Positions 873 to 32,699 of a stretch of 33,162 nt of DNA are shown one piece after another. The stretch's first letter is position 1; every line of letters starts with the position of its first letter. Both the position numbers and the translations under genes were made by a program. The stretch is from contig FLMG01002189.1 in the NCBI GenBank assembly GCA_900088475.1, positions 1 through 33,162 of the forward strand, in the 5' to 3' direction. Source of the stretch: Hyphochytrium catenoides. Lineage: Eukaryota; Sar; Hyphochytriomycetes; Hyphochytriales; Hyphochytriaceae. The notes under the pieces were generated by a model, which had not been told where the DNA came from, made no database searches, and saw nothing but the letters and a program-made list of their open reading frames with translations.

Positions 873-2448
873 TCAGGGCCAGAGTCTCTCTTTAATCCAC
901 TGCTGATTATGTCCGCTCTCCTCATCCTCTCCCTTGCTTTTTTCTGTTCCTTGGCATCGGGCGGCAGTGCGGCGGCGATAGCGCAGTCGCCCGTGGCGCC
1001 TGCTCTTTTCTCCTTGCCAGAACTCTATCACTTCTGGCTGCAGCCTGTACAGCTGATATGGAACGGTGAAGCCTTTGGTGCTAGTCTCTTCTTCTTCTCT
1101 TTCTCCTCTTTCCTCCTCGTGATCTCGTCTTCGCGGCAGATACTTTGTCTTTAACCCTTCATAGTGGTTGTCAAAGAGTTCAATGTCTTCCTCTCCCATG
1201 ACCTCACTCTGCCTCCCTAACAGCGTCGCGAGCTGGGAGTCTTCTGATCGGGAGAAAAACTCTCTCCTTGTCTCTTCCTCGCTCGCCTCAGTCACTCTTC
1301 CTCTCACGCGGACCTGACGGCCTTGCTCACGCCAGTAAAACAACAGAGCAGCCTCTGGGTGTGCAGAGAGCTGTTTCCCCTTTGCACTGTCTCGATGGGA
1401 GCCGAACGCGAAACCTGTGCGTGCGCGGGGAAGAGAAAGAATAGAGAGGAAGAGCAAAACGCCAAGAGGACAAAGATTTCGGTCATTAAGACTGAGGGGC
1501 TAAGGATTCCTTAATCGTTGATGAGAGAGAGAGAGAGGAGGGAGAGAATTGTAGAATGAGAAGGATAAAGGAGAGAAAGAGAGAAAGGAAATCTTTAAAG
1601 GATAAAAGTGAAGAATAGAGAGCCAGCAAGAGTTATACATCTCACGTAACAAGTCGCACACATAGCGGATAGCTCTGCCTCCCTCTCTCTCTGTGGGTCT
1701 TTCTCTCTCTCTGTCTGTCTGTCTTTCTCTCTCTCTGTCTGTCTTTCTTTCTCTCTCTCTCTCTCCTGCTTGCTCTCTCTCTCTTGCTATCTCTCTCGTG
1801 CTCTCTTTCTCTCCCTATCAATCTCCCTCTCTCGCTCTCTTCCTCTATTTCTCCCCGCCCCCCGTCTCCTGACAATTTTGTCCGCCGCTTCTACTTTTGA
1901 TGTCCTCTCTCTCTCTCTCTCTCCATCCATCTGCCTTTCTCCCTTTGCCTCTGTCAATCCTGGTGGTGGCGTTCCTTACCTTTGTCGGGCGAGACATCTC
2001 TCAGCAGAACGACGCGAGCATCAGGCCATAATCCTCCTCTTTCTTCTCTCTTGACTGTGCTCTGTTCTTCCCTTTTCTCTCCTTCCTTCCCTTCTTCCAC
2101 TTCGTTCTTCCCCTCCACGGTGCAGACCGTCACTGCATGAGGCTCACAGACATCATCGTCTAGTGCAGCTGCAAGCCAGTCTTTGAACAGTGTAAAAGGT
2201 TCGGCTGGCGCAGCTCCAGCGTCGAACCGCGGGAAGTGCTCACTTCTCTGAAAGACCGGTGCTTGGTGGAGCTTAGCCTTGAGAAGATCCCAGCTAGCGC
2301 TACTGCTGGTGACAAGTAGTGGAGGAGAAGAAGGAGAGGGATGAAGGGAAGAGTGATCTAGCAGCACCTTCTCTCCTTCTCTGGCATCTTCTTCTTTCGT
2401 TCGATTTCCTTCTCTCGTGATGCTAGAGCTTGTCTTCTCCCGCTCCAT
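873..2448 (-). CDS. PNPO: Pyridoxamine 5'-phosphate oxidase (two exons)
   Basis: Predicted FMN enzyme that oxidises pyridoxamine or pyridoxine 5'-phosphate to pyridoxal 5'-phosphate, the last step of vitamin B6 cofactor synthesis and salvage. Exon 1 is 2448-1980 and exon 2 is 1414-873. The intron 1979-1415 (565 bp) starts GTAAGG and ends GCACAG. Joining restores the frame through DKG|FAFG and gives 336 residues. Family landmarks in order are: EPHAVTVCTVE (102-112), the FMN segment ARVVLLR (144-150), GSHRDSAKGKQL (160-171), FYW (182-184), RQVRVRG (189-195), SEDSQLA (213-219), EFWQG (287-291), the substrate pair R295/H297, and the closing WIKERLWP. The chosen ATG has A at -3. Oddities are a ~25-residue Lys/Glu-rich insert (113-138), a second acidic/basic stretch (250-270), a Ser/Pro-rich N-terminal extension of about 50 residues, and Gly298 where the family usually has Asp in RxHDR. 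The protein is longer than the ~260 residues usual in the family. No targeting signal is clear. Family identity is very likely; the exact start is less certain. Confidence 0.9.
1681..1930. repeat. CT/CTGT-rich microsatellite inside the PNPO intron
   Basis: A plus-strand run of CTCTCT, CTGTCTGT and CTTTCT units occupies most of the intron of the pyridoxamine phosphate oxidase gene. On the coding (minus) strand it reads GA/GACA. Long open frames across it encode only Arg/Glu or Leu/Ser repeats and are not genes. Confidence 0.75.
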
Positions 2449-4250: not shown

Positions 4251-5040
4251 AGCAGGTCATCAGATGACGCGGATAGTAGTCGGACAGCTGCTGCCTCTGG
4301 CCAAGCTGAACGATGAAAAGGAAGAGCCCGACCCTGCGTCAAAAGAGTGGTGTTCACTGCGCTGAGGATTGAAGAGGAGAAGAAAGCCGTAGCGTCCTGC
4401 CTGCTTCATGTCTTCCCAGCGGACAAGAAGCTTACGTGCCATGCCCTAGTATAGGAAGCACAACGCTTGGGAGAGAAACAGTAGCGGCCGCCTTTATCCT
4501 TCTCATTTGGTGCTTCTCCAAAGACCAGCAAGCTGCAAGGAAGATCAACAACAACCAGGAACAGTCCTATGAACTACCGGGTCAAGAAGGAATCCTGCCA
4601 TTCAAAGGCCCAACCAGGCGGTGGAAGGCCTCTCTAGATTCCTACGAAGACATTGTCACTTTGGAAGAGGCACTAGGCCTAAGCTCTTCATAGGAGCTGA
4701 CGGATGAAGAACTCTGTCCGGTCACCTTTATAAAGAACTAGGGCGAAGCTCTTCCTAGGATCGCACTGATGATGACCGCCGGCAATCCAAGGAAGAGTCT
4801 TCACTGATAGTCTAGAGAGAGAGAGAGAGAGCAGCGGGATCGGAGAGTCTCTTCGGGCAAAGATGCAACAGTGACATTTACTGATTAGAGGAAAGGTAGT
4901 CTATCTACATCAGCTCCGTGTTCTTCTTGATATTCGATGATAAAGAGCACCTGTCATTGATCGATTGCCAACAACTAATACGTAAGCACAGGCATCTCTC
5001 TCACACCAGGCTGCCGCCCGCGACGTAGTAGCGAGGAGAC
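4251..5040. other. No recognisable gene
   Basis: An open frame at 4436-4693 (plus strand, 85 codons) has no recognisable domain, no signal peptide and no splice partners, so I do not call it. A short GA run lies near 4814-4832. Nothing else stands out before the long microsatellite. Confidence 0.3.
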
Positions 5041-5050
5041 AGAGACAGAG

Positions 5051-5104
<54 letters not shown>
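5041..5104. repeat. Long pure (GA)n microsatellite
   Basis: After an AGAGACAGAGAC lead-in, an uninterrupted run of about 23 GA dinucleotides extends from about 5055 to 5101. It is one of the longest perfect simple repeats in the window. The region from 5105 to 5660 is also GA- or CT-biased and holds no supportable gene. Confidence 0.9.
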
Positions 5105-5105
<1 letters not shown>

Positions 5106-5664
5106 TACAACTCTATCATCCGTCCAGCTCTTGTCCACTCAAGAAGATCTCTTCTCTCTCATCCCGAAGAGTTGGTTCTCCTCCTTGTTGTTGGTAGGAC
5201 GAAGCCCGACGCTCTTGAGAGCGCATTAATGGAGAGGAAGATGGAGAACGTGGTCTTCCTGCTGCTCTCTCTTCGCTTCTCTCTCGGTCCATACCTTCTT
5301 CGAGCCACCGGTCAGTCGTCTCCAATCTTTCTCCTCCTTCTCTTGTGGGATAGTGAGACGGACGAGAGGGGGACAGATTGGTCGATGAGGAACGGGAGAG
5401 AGAGCGACGGTGCTTGTGTTCTGTTCCTTCGAGGGATGGTCCTGCTAGTGTCGCCGTCTCTCTCGCAGCTGGCGCAGGTTCTGCTGTCCCATCCTGTGGC
5501 TGCCAACTGCCAGAAGCAGATGCTCTTGCACGCTGTGGTAGAAGAAGGTCAGACGTTGCCGGAGAAGATAGGAAGAGAGAGAGAGAAAGGGAGAGGGAGA
5601 GAGAAGGAGAGAGGGAGAAAGTTGCACGAGAGCGAGAGGCCTTTGCAGAAGAGAGAAACTACCC

Positions 5665-6176
5665 TTAACCATGAAAAGAGTATAGAAAGTGGGTTAATCT
5701 GGCAGCCATAGAAGAGGGAACAGCGGCGAAGAGATAGAGAGAGACAACGGCAACAGGAGAGAAGGCATCCACCACCTCTTCTGATACCTGTCTGGAAGAT
5801 GCTCTCCTCCTAGCGGGAGCCGTAGACTGAGCAGGACTTAGAGATGCAGCACCAGGAGATTCGTCCCCAGGCAGAGGAGTTACCAGCGCTCGTCCTCTCT
5901 CTCGTTTTGCTCCTCCTCCCCCGCCTTGCTCCTCCTCTTGCGCAGGAGACCCGAGGAGAATCGCAGAGGACAGTTGCGGGTATACCATCGTCTTCTCTCC
6001 TCTCTCTTGCTGCTCCTTCTTCTGCTGCCGGAGAGGAAGGTGTCGCTCGGGTGTGGCCGAAGAGAGAACCTTGGCGGGGACGACAGTCGGAGTATCTAAA
6101 TCAAGCTGGGACGCTTCTGTCAGAGCCTCAGCGAGAAGCTTCTGGATCCATTGGAGCTTGACTTTTGAGCTGGCGG
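5665..6176 (-). CDS. Candidate third exon: cytoplasmic tail of the rhodopsin
   Basis: This frame is open for 170 codons directly downstream of the rhodopsin stop codon. A GTACGT donor lies at 6286-6281 in the last rhodopsin exon. Opposite it is an acceptor ending CACCTAG (AG at 6178-6177), preceded by a clear pyrimidine tract. Splicing them removes 110 bp, joins ESLT in phase to AASSKVKLQWIQKLL, and lengthens the protein from 303 to 458 residues. The added tail has a possible amphipathic helix (VKLQWIQKLLAEAL), a Gly/Glu-rich linker and a basic, Ser-rich patch (ARRRASSRQ) that could be phosphorylated. It contains no known enzyme domain. If the intron is retained, translation stops at 6240. 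The join is inference from frame and splice signals only. Confidence 0.4.
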
Positions 6177-6239
6177 CTAGGTGACAACGTGAAGATCGGC
6201 AAAGGAAGAAGAGGGAAAGCAGACCAGACCAAGACGTCA

Positions 6240-7468
6240 TCAGTATCTTTCTAGAGACACGATTATTCCAGAAGTGTTGAACGTACCAGTTAAGGACTCT
6301 GTGCCCGGGCCCGCAAGGTGTTTCTCATGACGAGCTGCGCTGTCGTTCAGGAACAGGTGTTTGCCCTTTGGCTCGTTGAGAGGCAGGCCTAGGACCTCTG
6401 TATGTTCCTCCAGCTCCAGCCGGAAGAACGTCATTATGAGACCGAAGACGGTCTTGCAGAAGAGGTCGAGGAAGGCGTGGATAATCGTAAAGGCTTGTTG
6501 GTCGATGTGTCCTGTCCCCAGCCAGGAGAAGAGAAACAGGATGGGGAATAATGGCCAGAAGCCGAAGAAGATCTGCATTGAAGTTCAATCAGAGCAGAAA
6601 AGAGGGAAATTAGCAATGAGAGATAAGGATTTTCAGGAGGAAAGAGGGCACGCACCAAATGACAACGAATAGAAGGGCAAAAACCAAGGAAGGAAGAATG
6701 GCGGTGATGAGAAGGGGACCAGGAGCTCAGTGACACCAAGCCAAAGTAGACTGACCCCGGCAGGGCGAGCAAGGGGCAAAGCAGGAGAGTAGGAAGGCGT
6801 GAGACAGAGAGGGAGAACATCAGAAGAGGAAGAAAGAGGCCAAACCCTTCAGATGAAGAAACCAAGTCAGTGAAGGTCCAAACCCTTACCGTGCAGGCCC
6901 AGAACAGCAACTTCTGGCACTTGGGCGGATACACTTGGTACCTCTGCTTGACATGCCTTAGGAGAGAGAACGAGAAAGGAACAAACCAGACACAGCCCAC
7001 TGCATAGTAGCCAAACCGGAAGGCGGAGGGCGTGACGAAGGCCGCAACGCCGCACCAAAGAGTGATAATGACGGCAAAGACGAACCGCAGCTTATGCGGT
7101 ATTTCCAAGGTATAGAGAACGTCTAAGAGAATCAGAGGACAAGTGAAGACGTAGTCTAGATACCAGTACCAGTTGAAAGAGAAAGGCGTTCCGCCGCCAT
7201 CAAAGAAGTCAAAGGTCTTTGCTGCATAGATCGTCCCCGATACGAGACAGGAGAGTGCTGAGAACGAGTTCGCCTCTGGAGCGTACCCCGAGTGGTGCGG
7301 CTTGCACGAGTATCCCAAACCGAGGTCCAGCCGATAGAGCATCCAGGCTCCAGATCCGCCGATGAAAACAGAGCAGATGGCAGCCATAGCTCCCAGAAGT
7401 GGGTAGTCCATATCGTGGATGCTGCCATGGTGCCATCCGTCCTCGGGGCGACCCCCGCAGAATGGCAT
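6240..7468 (-). CDS. Channelrhodopsin of the potassium-channelrhodopsin (KCR) type
   Basis: Seven-helix retinal protein predicted to be a light-gated cation channel. Exon 1 is 7468-6890 and exon 2 is 6572-6240. The 317-bp intron has a GTAAGG donor and a TGCAG acceptor and joins FWACT to IFFGFWP, giving 303 residues. Helices lie at roughly 21-47, 66-88, 97-120, 126-146, 150-173, 187-211 and 216-243. The start MPFCGG was chosen because every functional residue then falls on the numbering I recall for HcKCR1: S70, Y81, D87, F88, N99, W102 (in place of the Arg82 of bacteriorhodopsin), D105, Y106, T109, C110, D116, H225, D229 and the retinal lysine K233. Trp199 lies 34 residues before K233, as in bacteriorhodopsin. 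The DTD triad (D105/T109/D116) is intact. Position 222, a filter tyrosine in HcKCR1, is Thr here, so K+ selectivity may be reduced. An ATG 17 codons upstream is possible but lies beyond a CAAACAG acceptor-like site. Confidence 0.92.
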
Positions 7469-7804: not shown

Positions 7805-7837
7805 ATGGGCTGTGAGAGGGAGAAGAGAGAGAGAGAG

Positions 7838-7868
<31 letters not shown>

Positions 7869-8036
7869 GAGAGAGGAAGAAAGAAAGAGAGAGAGGGAGG
7901 GAGGAAGATGGCAAGAGAGAGAAAGAGATAGTGTTTGTGTGTGTGAGACAGACAGAGAGACACACAGAGAGAGACAGAGAAAGAGAGAGAACGAGGAAGA
8001 GAGAGAGAGTAAGAGAGAGAGAAAGAGAGAGGAAGA
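7805..8036. repeat. GA/GAAA/GACA simple-repeat block
   Basis: A 230-bp purine-strand block of GAGAGA, AAAGAGAG, GACAGACA and GTGTGTG units lies about 340 bp upstream of the rhodopsin start. It yields spurious Arg/Glu and Leu/Ser frames on the two strands. It could affect chromatin near the promoter, but nothing in the sequence shows that. Confidence 0.8.
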
Positions 8037-9139
8037 GGACAAAAAAGATGACGGACACGAAGAGACACCACCCCTACTACTAATAATAAAGTAGTTACAA
8101 ACCACAGTCTTGTAGTACCGGTAAGAGACCTTTAGGAAGAGTCTTTGGTTGGAACGACGGCAGAAGGACGGACAAAGACAGGCACCACGGGCACCTTCCT
8201 TCGGAACATTCGTTCGGAACTTCCTGGACATTGGAGATGCACAACTTTTTGTTTCTGTTTCCGTTTCCCGTGTGGGTGACGTGTCTTTCTACTTTCTTGA
8301 GCCTTTTATTATTATGTAGAACTAATGGCATCGGGACAGTAGAGAGGTACAGACAGTACTAGGCCGTCCCGCACCAGTACTGGTTAGGGTAGGGAACAAG
8401 TAAATAACGAAATCCAAGTAAACTTTCACTTATTTACTGAGTGGAGAACTTGCAGGGGCTTAATGATAGGTCTTGGACTACTTACTGGTACTTGAGATGT
8501 GGCAGCAAGTTCCTTCAGTAGTAGTTCGTCACCTTAGAGGGAGAGAGAGATCTATGGGCTTGGGTTGACCAAGTCTAACTCTAGTCGCAGTGCACTTTCA
8601 CCTCTGAGCCATCGCCAGCTCGCTTGACCACGATTTATCACCTGCTATAATGATGACTGACGTCATGACTGGTTAACGAGTACTAAGCACTTGCTGATTG
8701 CATTGGACTCATTTAACAAATAGACTTGCAGTTGCAGGGAAGGTGATACCTTTAGGGGCGTTGTGCGAGAGATAGAACTATTTGTACCTTGTACACTTAG
8801 GGTTAAGACTAAGAAGATGAGACGGACTGTACATGTTAGGGGATTCGGACGGCCAGAGCGTTGAAGCTGTTGGAGTGTGAGCTGTCTGCAGTAATAGGGC
8901 TACTGGCATCACAGTCAGGGTCATGCTTGATATGACGGCTTCGAACCACAACAGTGAAGCGCCAACACTAGAAGAAGCGTAGAGAGCCTGAACTGTTAGT
9001 AACATAGCTTGGTAGTTCTACTTCTTCGTCCCACTACTATTGTCACTTCGCCTCCTGCGAGATGAACCCAGCTTTTAGCTTCTACGGGAGAGTAGTTCAG
9101 CTTTCTCTTTCCTAGTGCCTTTATTAGTATTAGTGAGGT
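8037..9139. other. No recognisable gene
   Basis: Mixed-composition DNA with many short frames and stops on both strands. No domain, transfer RNA box set or splice-supported model was seen. Confidence 0.35.
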
Positions 9140-14080: not shown

Positions 14081-14182
14081 CTTTCTTTTTTAGATTGATT
14101 TCCTTCAGCATTCTTTTTTACTTTTCTATTTTTTTTATTATTGTTGTTATCACTACTTAGCAAACTAAACTAGAAGAAGAAA

Positions 14183-18600: not shown

Positions 18601-20398
18601 ATGAGAAGCTTCCCGCCTTACCTCAATGATACCAAAGCCAGCGGGGTAACGGGTGGAACTCACACCGTTCTCATACCAATAGTACTCCTTATATGTGGGG
18701 CGCCCAGAATCGGTGAGATCCATGTACACAAAACCTATCTCATTGCGCCGATTGTCCGAGTACGTGAAGGACAGTAGCACTAGGTACCTAAAGATGAAGG
18801 AGTTGATGAGAAGGATGTAGGTAAAGAAAGCGAAAGCCCTGCAACCTCAAGTTCAACTATGTGTTCCACAACAACGAAGGAAGAGGCATCCAAGGAATAG
18901 TATGGCGGTCCACGTAAGCTCAGCGAAGCCCTCATCCATACACTAATTCGTCATATTCCCCAGGTCGTGACATTATTACCTGTCTGTGACTTGGTTGATC
19001 ATCAGCTGAGCTCCCTTCGGATGCCTATAGAGTTCCTTGTCATCATTCACGCTTGTTCCTACAATGTGGCTTCTAAGGACATTATACTCTTCGTCGACAT
19101 AGAAGAGCTCGTCATTGGCCACTGGTGACCATGCGCTGGAGGTTAGCGCAACATTCTCGTCGTACTTTTTGTCTTTGCCGGAGAGGTCGACGAACCTGGC
19201 ATTTGATATCTAAAAAGGAAGAGCGTCAATAAGAGTGAGGGTGCAGGAGGCAGAAAGAACCCCGCCTAGATATCAGGAGGCGTGACAAGTGTCCAAAGTG
19301 TCCTTTTTCGGATGCAGGAGCAGTGGATGAGCAAGAGGGGAGGCATAAAGATCGTTATCGCAAGACCGAAGACTGGACACCACGTGCAGATAAACTATCA
19401 AAGCGCAATTAGTAAGAGCAAGTCTGGAAAAGAAGGCTGGGTATATAAGGATCCTCGATAACCGAATCAGAGATACAGGGAGTCAAGGCGAACAAAGACT
19501 TACACCGCTGAAGAGCACGATCGTCCCATTGGCATTATGGTAACTCTGTACATATCTCCTCGCGTCGATGCTATCGATGACCTCAGTGACATCGGTCTTT
19601 ACCACCGGACCATTGCCGTCGATACGCTTCCAAACCAATGTGATATTACTATTATCTGGCTTTTCCTCCCCAAAGTCTATGTAATAGTAATAGTCTCCAA
19701 CAGTGGTAGCCGCAAGGGTCGGTGTCTAAGGGGAGGCCAGCAGGCAGGAGCGGGTTCGTTTAGCAGGGTTGCGACCAACATTGTGACTAGTACAAAATTC
19801 AACGGCGATTGTGGACGCCAAAACAGGATATGAGATGTAACGTAAGGGCATAGACTTTCAAAAACCAAGAAAAGAGTTGAAGGAGGCAAACCAGAGGTCG
19901 AAGGCGTTTTCGTCTTCTCTGCCTGTTGTCACTCCTCAACTGTTGATGTGACGACAATAACATAAGAGCAAAATGCCAGGAATGGAAGCTTGTAAGTCGA
20001 GCTGAGATGGACGGAAAACAGACCTGGTAGCTTTCCACTTCATGCTTCAATGTCTTCAGCTTGTCTTCCTTTTCTTGTGCGAGCTTTGCGAAATACTGGT
20101 TCTCCTTTTGCTGAAATGCCACTGCATCAGCATCTCCAGGGTAGTTCTCGTCTGCCGCATCCAAAGTTGAGAAGTAAAAGTACTGGTCTTCGACAATCTC
20201 CGCCGGAACCATGGCATCAGGTCCACGATCTTCGTTCTCTACTTTTCCGAAGACCAGAGTACTATTCTTGGGAATAGCGACGGGCGGGTCCGCCAAAGAT
20301 TCTGCCTTTGAAGGGGCGCCAGCGGCGCAAAGACTTGGGCCGCAGAGCCCAGCAGCGAGAGCCACCGTCATCGCCAAGCGATAGGAAGATAACCCCAT
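15612..20398 (-). CDS. Secreted prolyl-oligopeptidase-family (S9A) protein, 13 exons
   Basis: Thirteen exons were joined by frame and GT-AG sites: 20398-20024, 19725-19504, 19209-18980, 18787-18622, 18379-18184, 17999-17842, 17710-17651, 17423-17203, 17052-16832, 16618-16517, 16259-16201, 16117-16034 and 15794-15612. All phases agree, giving 758 residues. Prolyl oligopeptidases cleave short peptides after proline with a seven-bladed propeller and an alpha/beta-hydrolase domain. Residues 1-25 look like a signal peptide, unlike the usual cytosolic enzyme. Propeller matches include DRYLVLLSFTYSD and LTPPSLYQVDI. The hydrolase part begins near DYEVTRSDVTYTPSNGKE and continues through MVRGTN, AGLVVMAAVNQAPDLV, TGFSWASEYG and KGYSPAENI. 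Catalytic motifs deviate: the GGSNGG nucleophile elbow reads SDSRAG (613-618, candidate Ser615, after a ~6-residue insert), the Asp position aligns with Asn697, and the His aligns with His731. Activity is therefore doubtful. Exon 5 has a second acceptor 6 bp downstream. Family call is firm; loss of function is inference. Confidence 0.82.
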
Positions 20399-20589
20399 GA
20401 TACTTTGCTTTGGAAACTTGCTCCCACTAGTAAATAACCGATACGGTTGACGATGACGTTCGTGAGCAAAAGCGGTAGCCTTAAGAACTGGTGATCCTCC
20501 AGGAAATTGATAAGTAAGAACTTCTAAACCTGAGATCTATAAGACAGCTGACCTACACCTAGCCACTTGTAAAGGAAACGTTGGCTTCA

Positions 20590-30374: not shown

Positions 30375-30656
30375 CAGGTACAATTGCGTTAGAAGATGTA
30401 CGCTGACGGCCCGGTGGAAGTGGGGTTAATAGACAGACTTCCGTTTCGTGACCTCGTCCTCTCTCTCTCCCCAGTATCAGCATAATACAGCAGGCACTCA
30501 TCAGGTACAGTTGGCTCACAGCATGTACGCTGGCAGACCGGTGGAAGTGGGGTTAATAGACAGACTTCCGGTCAGGGACCTCGTCCTCTCTCTCTCCCCA
30601 GTAGCAGCAAAATACAGCAGGCACTCATCAGGTACAATCGGGTCACAGCATGTACG
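30375..30656. repeat. Tandem duplication, 127-bp period
   Basis: The anchor ATGTACG occurs at 30396, 30523 and 30650, exactly 127 bp apart each time. The two complete units share CCGGTGGAAGTGGGGTTAAT, the CTCGTCCTCTCTCTCTCCCC stretch and CAGGCACTCATCAGGTACA. Confidence 0.85.
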
Positions 30657-31732
30657 AGGGGTTGCTTGGGTCTTAGTAGGGGTTGCTGGGGTCTGAGCAG
30701 GGATGCTTTTACTACACTAAGGGTAAATGGGCGTTGAACCTCTCCGTAAACACCTCTGTTCATCGCAAAACGTCATCAGACTTGGACTGAACCATGACTA
30801 TACCTTCAAAGAGTCTCTTGCAAAATGGCAGGCGTCTCAGCAGGGGTGGCTGGGGTCACAGCAGGGGTGGCTTTATTACACTGAGGGTACATGGGCTCTG
30901 ACCCTCTCCGTAAATACCTCTGTTCGTCGCAAAACGTCATCAGGCGCGGGCTGAACCATGACTATACCTTCGAAGAGTCTCTCGCAAAATGAGTATCACA
31001 TGCCTTGGGTGTTGGTGCCTATATTGGCCACTGTACCTGGCTCACTCTCTTCCACTCTGCGGACGTTACTAAGCTAAAGGTACATGGGCTCTGACCCTCT
31101 CCGTAAACACCTCTGTTTCTCGCAAAACGCTATCAGACGCGGACTTAACCATGACTATACTTTCAAAGGGTCTCTCCCAAAATAACTGTCCCATGCTCTG
31201 GGTGTTGGTGTTGATATTGGCCACTGTACCTGGCTCACTCTCTTTCACTGTGCGGACGTTACTACACTAAAGGTACATGAGGTCTGACCTTCTCCGTAAG
31301 CAACTCTATTGATAGGAAAATGTCATCAGACTTCAATGACTTTACCATCCGGACGGTGTTTCGGAAATTGATTACCGCGCGCGCCCTGCGAGTTAGTGTT
31401 GATATTGATCACTATACCTTGCTCACTCTCTCCTACTCTGTGGACGTCACCACGGTCAAGGTACAAGGGCTCTGACCCCCTCAGTAAACACTTCTGTATA
31501 TCGCAAAACGCCATCAGGCTTGGACTGAACCATGACTATGCCTTCAAATAGTCTCTCCCAGAAGGACGATCAGACGCCCTGGATGTTGGTGTCGGTATTG
31601 GCCACTGTACCTGGCTCACTCTCTTTCAGTGTGCGGACGATTCTAAACTAAAGACACGTGGGCTCTGACCCTCTCCGTAAACACCTCTGGTGATCACAAA
31701 ACGCCATTCGACTTGGAGTGAACCATAACTAT
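30657..31732. repeat. Satellite-like array, ~193-bp period, six copies
   Basis: The anchor ACATGGGCTCTGACC or a variant occurs at about 30727, 30891, 31084, 31277, 31465 and 31658. The spacings are 164, 193, 193, 188 and 193 bp. Each unit carries CTCCGTAAACACCTCTG, CGCAAAACG(T/C)CATCAG, AACCATGACTATACC, and in the long units GGCCACTGTACCTGGCTCAC. The short first period holds 15-bp GTCTCAGCAGGGGTG units in place of the missing part, tying this array to the next one. Confidence 0.85.
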
Positions 31733-32699
31733 TGCTGGTGTCTCAGCAGGGGTGGCTGGTGTCTCAGCAGGTGTGGCTGGTGTCTCAGCAGGGGTGGCAG
31801 GAGTTTCAGCTGGAGTGGCAGGAGTCTTGGCAGGGTTTGCTGATATCTCAGCTGGGGCCGCTTAAGTCTCAGCTGGGGCAACAGAAGTCTCAGCTCGGTC
31901 GTCGGGGGTCTCAGCGGGGTTGACAGGAGTCACAGGAGCCTTAGTGGGGGGTGGCAGAGTCTCTAGAGACTGAGGCGGGGTTGTTGGAGTTTCAGCAGGG
32001 GTTGCTGGTGTTTCAGCAGTTGTGGCTGTTGTCTCAGCAGGGGTGGCAGGAGTTTCAACAGGAGTGGTAGGAGTCTTGGCCGGGTTTGCTGGTATCTCCG
32101 CACATGTGGCTGGTGTCTCAGCAGGGGTGTCAGGAGTTTCAGCTGGAGTGACAGGAGTCTCAGCGAGGGTGGCAGGAGTCTTAGCTGGGGCCGCAGGAGT
32201 CTCAGCTGGGGCAACAGAAGTCTCAGCTGGGTCGGCGGCGGTCTCAGCGGGGTTGGCAGGAGTCACAGGAGACTCAGTGGGGGTTGGCAGAGTCTCTAGA
32301 GATTGAGCGGGGGTGGTTGGAGTCTGAGCAGGGGCTGCTGGTGTCTCAGCAGTTGTGTCTGGTGTCTCAGCAGGGGTGCCAGGAGTTTCACCGGGAGTGG
32401 GAGGAGTCTTGGCAGGGTTGCTGGTATCTCAGCAGGGGTTGCTGGTGTCTCAGCAGGGGTGGCAGGAGTCTCAGTAGGGTTGGCAGGAATTTCAGCTGGA
32501 GTGACAGGAGTCTCGGGGTGGCAGGAGTCTCAGCTGGGGCCGCAGGAGTCTCAGCTGGGTCGGCGACGGTTTCAGCGGGGTTGGCAAGAGTCACAGAACC
32601 CCTGTTTGCTGGTGTCTCAGCAGGTGTGGCTGGAGTTTTTACGCGAGTGGTAGGAGTCTTGGCAGGGTTTGCTGTTATCTCAGCAGGGGTTGTTGGAGT
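31733..32699. repeat. 15-bp minisatellite encoding PAETP-like pentapeptides, 333-bp higher-order repeat
   Basis: Units of about 15 bp (GGTGTCTCAGCAGGG and GGAGTCTTGGCAGGG types). The minus strand reads as Pro-Ala-Glu-Thr-Pro pentapeptides and the plus strand as Val-Ser-Ala-Gly-Val, and both are open for over 80 codons in places. A marker GAGTCTCTAGAGA recurs at 31957 and 32290, giving a 333-bp higher-order period that is a multiple of three. No start, signal peptide or flanking domain supports a gene. It is best treated as a minisatellite with possible coding ancestry. Confidence 0.8.

Follow-up and report, generated by a model that had tools for sequence, protein, structure and literature searches.

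A sodium-preferring cation channelrhodopsin gene of Hyphochytrium catenoides with a predicted C-terminal tail shared by its two potassium-selective paralogs

The gene on the minus strand of the window, the 33,162-nucleotide stretch of DNA from the fungus-like protist Hyphochytrium catenoides analyzed here, is almost certainly that of the H. catenoides cation channelrhodopsin HcCCR (also NCR1), a channel gated by green light that favors Na+ over K+ by a mechanism already published. It probably continues well past the rhodopsin domain: judged from sequence, the predicted gene extends to position 5116 through two further exons and would encode 556 residues, of which ∼290 form a tail. In a search of solved-structure sequences, residues 1 to 265 of the spliced protein were identical to PDB chain 8gi9_A at 265 of 265 positions (E = 6.6e-189), and chain 8ifu_A ("HcCCR") matched at 264 of 265, with one residue different. 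Since the match to 8gi9_A runs throughout and that to 8ifu_A fails at a single residue, chance is of no concern. HcKCR1 and HcKCR2 were the next structure matches, the printed HcKCR1 alignments being ungapped. A protein-collection search gave 3 hits among 1,251 candidates and recovered the same protein as a UniRef entry, "Cation Channelrhodopsin" of Hyphochytrium catenoides. The known HcCCR/HcNCR1 (GenBank OL692497, PDB 8gi9 and 8ifu) is thus the protein of the window, with Thr222, Phe69, and Ser73; its deposited construct covers the transmembrane part, residues 1 to 265, and the full-length version published so far comprises 432 residues, against the 556 predicted here. A preliminary description of this DNA had guessed that the gene could be the third H. 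catenoides paralog, the one less selective for K+, and that the channel may favor Na+. Both guesses proved right: the protein is HcCCR, and its published wild-type preference for Na+ is about 5-fold (PNa/PK = 5 in a review table, PMC11592924; ∼5.8 in oocytes, PMC10730689), as given in the parts of these papers available to us. We rejected the idea of a new natural filter variant, and the interpretation of Thr222 is not new, because the sequence is that of the published HcCCR; the gene, the Na+ selectivity of its product, and the part played by Thr222 have all been published (available text of PMC9765531 and PMC10359266).

Exon 1 (6890..7468, minus strand) opens with the ATG at 7468 and encodes residues 1 to 193, including F69, S70, S73, N99, W102, D105, and D116, as read from the translation, the identity to 8gi9_A, and the genome match. 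Intron 1 (6573..6889; 317 nt, GTAAGG...TGCAG, phase 0) follows residue 193, the same position as in HcKCR2. Exon 2 (6287..6572) encodes residues 194 to 288 and the first base of codon 289, carries T222, H225, D229, and the retinal lysine K233, and ends in phase 1 at ACTG|GTACGT. Joined over the GT...AG intron, exons 1 and 2 translate into a seven-helix (7TM) rhodopsin, which scored 76.6 bits against Pfam PF01036 (Bac_rhodopsin; cut-off, 24.6) and, with K233, belongs to the microbial (type I) rhodopsins. D105, T109, and D116, which we take to correspond to bacteriorhodopsin positions 85, 89, and 96, form the helix C DTD motif of the bacteriorhodopsin-like cation channelrhodopsins. This motif is named in the available text of PMC10359266. 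A long GA-rich simple repeat (7814-8031) lies ∼350 bases upstream of the start codon. Elsewhere in the window, an open frame at 876-1499 (minus strand) matches pyridoxamine 5′-phosphate oxidase, with the N- and C-terminal Pfam domains both above cut-offs, a galactofuranosyltransferase domain match at 19802-20536 (minus strand) stays below the Pfam cut-off (21.9 versus 27 bits), and tandem repeats, densely nested and with unit lengths of ∼20 to 333 bases, occupy 30396-32686.

All 13 filter and retinal-pocket residues listed in the preliminary description (S70, Y81, F88, N99, W102, D105, Y106, T109, C110, D116, H225, D229, and K233) were found at the numbers given there in the spliced translation, as was Thr at position 222. 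Residues 1 to 263 align with HcKCR1 without a gap, which puts Thr222 in the Tyr222 column. The role assigned to Thr222 in selectivity stood; what had been overlooked is that Phe69 and Ser73 act jointly with it. By translation and alignment, these two positions both differ from HcKCR1, which has Leu69 and Ile73, and HcKCR2 has Ile69 and Val73. The three expected HcCCR determinants, Phe69, Ser73, and Thr222, are all present in the spliced protein. K+ selectivity in kalium channelrhodopsins requires both Trp102 and Tyr222, according to the available text of PMC9765531 and PMC10359266; HcCCR has W102, with T222 in place of the tyrosine. Among the single changes tested in HcCCR helices 2 and 7, only F69L, S73I, and T222Y are reported to shift selectivity significantly toward K+, and combining them made HcCCR K+-selective, with PK/PNa of ∼8 (PMC9765531, in part). 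The accessible portion of PMC10359266 describes how Tyr222 of HcKCR1 interrupts the extracellular opening and bonds to Trp102 and Gln218, how this opening reaches deeper in the HcCCR structure, past Thr222, and how residues 69, 73, and Asp116 make up an intracellular site. By these published steps, light isomerizes retinal on Lys233 and the 7TM protein opens; the extracellular aromatic constriction stays open at Thr222, and Phe69 and Ser73 alter the intracellular site beside Asp116, so that the pore is without both K+ filters of HcKCR1 and lets Na+ pass. The present view of how K+ can be selected without a classical tetrameric filter builds on the published natural experiment that HcCCR and HcKCR1 together provide.

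We searched the genome (42.5 Mb in 1,105 contigs) with the HcCCR protein and found five matches, two on the contig of the window (C887) and three on contig C585; a rhodopsin-family search likewise gave five places, all on these two contigs. In keeping with this, the available part of the genome paper lists three type I rhodopsins, two of them consecutively numbered (PMC5795050); gene model Hypho2016_00010050, the one whose number stands apart, is probably HcCCR. On C585, HcKCR2 is preceded upstream by HcKCR1, which is present from exon 2 onward; the two genes stand in tandem on one strand, ∼5.7 kb apart (HcKCR1 stop at 14100, HcKCR2 start at 8368). A run of N fills C585:15923-18902, where HcKCR1 exon 1 is expected, and no exon 1 is readable before its exon 2. 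The acceptor of that exon 2, at C585:15859 and 64 bases from the N run, reads GGGGAAG versus TGCAG in the two paralogs and may reflect an assembly fault. Published identity of HcKCR1 and HcKCR2 to HcCCR is 70 to 74% in the 7TM domain, as given in partial accounts; like HcCCR, both carry the tail blocks described below, but unlike it, both have Tyr222 and are K+-selective. CovKCR1/2, mgCCR4, other KCR homologs, and WiChR fall in the same channelrhodopsin branch, a placement taken from the available published descriptions alone; in PMC9765531, likewise seen in part, the K+-selective CovKCRs retain Trp102 and Tyr222, and mgCCR4, with Ile at 222, lacks K+ selectivity. A further KCR-like exon 1, P0003 (270 amino acids, from a 1,616-base contig in ENA), is 59% identical over 62% of the HcCCR query; its match stops short of helix G, and at residues 68 to 73 it reads S-L-S-G-V-V by eye, closer to the KCRs than to HcCCR.

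The end of the gene at 6240 in the preliminary description is probably wrong, as the in-frame read-through stop there seems to lie inside predicted intron 2 (6177..6286; 110 nt), just past the donor-like ACTG|GTACGT. Predicted exon 3 (5788..6176) encodes the start of the tail, with a helix-like block, KVKLQWIQKLLAEALTEASQLDL, conserved in both paralogs, and ends in phase 0 at RRRASSRQ|GT. Predicted intron 3 (5533..5787; 255 nt, GTATCA...CCACAG) leads to predicted exon 4 (5116..5532), which cross-comparison of the paralogs supports, reads RARASASG...HRRSLSRSSS...QELDG*, and with its stop would complete the 556 residues. In all three paralogs a phase-1 donor ends exon 2, and an acceptor downstream leads into a conserved frame; the splice phases are 0,1,0 in HcCCR and HcKCR2, and HcKCR1 shares the last two. 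Predicted full lengths are 556 residues for HcCCR (stop ending at 5116), 550 for HcKCR2, and 537 for HcKCR1, the last model taking residues 1 to 193 from the public protein since its genomic exon 1 is unreadable.

Three tail blocks are kept in all three genes, namely, the helix-like segment, RRASSRQ|RAR across the splice junction, and HRRSLSxSSS; invariant columns (HcCCR numbers) include K295-I299, K301-L303, E305-L307, R412-R421, and H459-S464. Over the 27 codons of the exon 3 segment, identities are 15/27 for HcCCR/HcKCR2, 16/27 for HcCCR/HcKCR1, and 23/27 for HcKCR2/HcKCR1, with nucleotide differences by codon position of 10,3,15, 8,4,12, and 4,1,6, respectively. Such differences, mostly at third positions, are the pattern of translated sequence. 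The 10-codon HRRSLSxSSS block gave 0,0,6, 0,1,5, and 0,1,3 in the three pairs, and the RRASSRQ block gave 1,1,5, 1,1,4, and 0,0,2; all three blocks were chosen for their likeness, which favors a pattern of this type. Exon 3 ends in (L/R)RRASSRQ, then GT, in each gene, and the donor is weak in two of the three (GTATCA in HcCCR, GTGTGA in HcKCR1).

For exon 4, we looked in each of the three genes for YAG acceptors from which the reading frame could continue in phase 0, with off-phase triples as controls. Among in-phase triples, RARAS.../RARTL... ranked first at lengths of 8 and 12 residues (scores, 53 and 65), second at 18, and third at 25. Control scores were 59 and 34 at 8 residues and 63 and 37 at 12; one 8-residue control thus beat exon 4 (59 versus 53); this high control stems from serine-leucine repeats, and the best 25-residue off-phase triple (91) is the HRRSLS block within the same exon 4 frames. 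Given these control scores, the acceptor search alone is no proof of exon 4. In cross-comparisons with the 98 to 117 open frames of each region, the exon 4 frames were mutual best matches in six of six comparisons, scoring 106 to 111 with runners-up at 50 to 101, and tail scores exceeded all 500 shuffles in all six exon/pair tests. tblastn between the paralog regions at E ≤ 0.01 found exon 3 and not exon 4. When the genome was queried with HcCCR exon 4 at E ≤ 1, the KCR exons were missing from the results, and the sole matches elsewhere were two weak ones (E = 0.016 and 0.022) with internal stops. Antisense to exon 4, a low-complexity DUF3915 match at 4986-5708 (plus strand) falls below its cut-off (20.2 versus 26.9 bits).

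An end that leaves exon 4 unused, giving either the published 432-residue model or a 458-residue protein by reading exon 3 through to the stop at 5665, is unlikely. The full-length 432-residue construct was expressed, according to the available text of PMC10730689, and HcCCR exon 3 is indeed open to 5665; yet the likeness of the three genes breaks off immediately past RRASSRQ, with one codon before a stop in HcKCR1 and a serine-leucine-rich frame in HcKCR2, and the genes become alike again in exon 4, with HcCCR/HcKCR2 differences of 0,0,6 by codon position in HRRSLSRSSS. A genome search with exon 3 read through to 5665 returned the query itself and both copies on C585, one of which has a TGA within the aligned part. 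The same paper gives full-length sizes of 432 residues for HcCCR/NCR1 and 395 for KCR1 (PMC10730689, in part). The original HcCCR gene model, as partially available, was without part of helix 5, and the transmembrane region was rebuilt from the genome (PMC9396214); our guess is that 432 equals 458 residues minus that missing stretch. Alternative splices that could yield 432 residues included two acceptors that fit with the exon 3 end at 5788 and, with the exon 3 donor varied, four donor/acceptor pairs; none was convincing. That a tail exists was already known; its exon 4 part appears, by length alone, to be absent from the published full-length models. In the available text of the HcCCR/HcKCR literature searched, a scope that excludes the original 2022 HcKCR description, we found neither the exon 4 part nor the three-way conservation of the tail.

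It is considerably less probable that the gene stops at 6240 with intron 2 read through, as a 303-residue protein. The frame is open as far as 6240, and channels truncated to between 265 and 273 residues are reported to function (PMC10359266 and PMC10730689, each in part); against this, the read-through peptide is by eye unlike HcKCR1 or HcKCR2, the spliced exons 3 and 4 are alike, and a published model already reaches 432 residues (PMC10730689, available text). That the DNA holds an ortholog from another hyphochytrid is barely credible against the full identity to 8gi9_A and an HcKCR1-like exon 2 in this genome that equals the solved HcKCR1 sequence wherever the two can be compared.

We also searched for relatives of the predicted tail outside the three genes. 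A region search of the protein collection gave none at E ≤ 1 (4,465 candidates), nor did the solved structures at the same threshold, and a Pfam scan at E ≤ 1 returned the rhodopsin domain and nothing in the tail. A search with the full-length alignment of the three paralogs gave no match at E ≤ 0.001 among 8,000 scored, the 265- and 273-residue entries being outside its length range. Pattern matches in viral (50) and prokaryote genome (30) contigs yielded no confirmed relative, and a further place for exon 3 on contig C971 (E = 0.53) was taken as chance.

Features of the predicted tail are the helix-like segment and a pair of arginine-serine blocks, all conserved; one of the pair (RRASS, a basophilic-kinase type site) adjoins the splice junction. 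The number of RRxS motifs was not above chance, being reached in 238 of 2,000 shuffled tails for HcCCR, 1,223 of 2,000 for HcKCR2, and 1,033 of 2,000 for HcKCR1, so that what points to RRASS as a candidate kinase site is solely its shared position in the three paralogs. The helical moment of the helix-like segment is modestly high (reached by 842, 1,163, and 1,124 of 20,000 shuffles for HcCCR, HcKCR1, and HcKCR2, respectively). An A-kinase anchoring helix was considered and rejected: the amphipathic anchoring pattern fits one of the three paralogs, HcCCR, and was fitted by 332, 321, and 174 of 2,000 shuffled tails of HcCCR, HcKCR2, and HcKCR1. The genome holds one RIIa-domain match.

Because the predicted sequence is kept between paralogs that differ in ion selectivity, its role is probably common to K+ and Na+ channels. 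From the topology in the available parts of the structure papers, the tail would lie in the cytoplasm, where we would guess at membrane or flagellar localization or at phosphorylation of RRASS; with less certainty than attaches to the identity of the gene, the tail would localize or regulate the channel in the zoospore. The 432-residue form was poorly expressed in oocytes and truncations left the reversal potential unchanged (PMC10730689, in part), which fits a role in trafficking rather than in selectivity. Constructs in the available descriptions end at residue 265 (PMC10359266 and PMC7615185) or 283, except the oocyte ones of up to 432. As most are without the tail, the part that possibly decides location and regulation has been little studied within the literature covered. 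Taken together, the sequences lead us to propose, tentatively and as a plausible reading, that all three H. catenoides channelrhodopsins share a cytoplasmic tail of ∼270 to 290 residues beyond residue 265, encoded mainly by two exons, the last seemingly unpublished, and that it may serve as a common module placing or tuning K+ and Na+ channels in the same zoospore membrane. If so, the behavior of the native channels would differ from that of the truncated laboratory tools.
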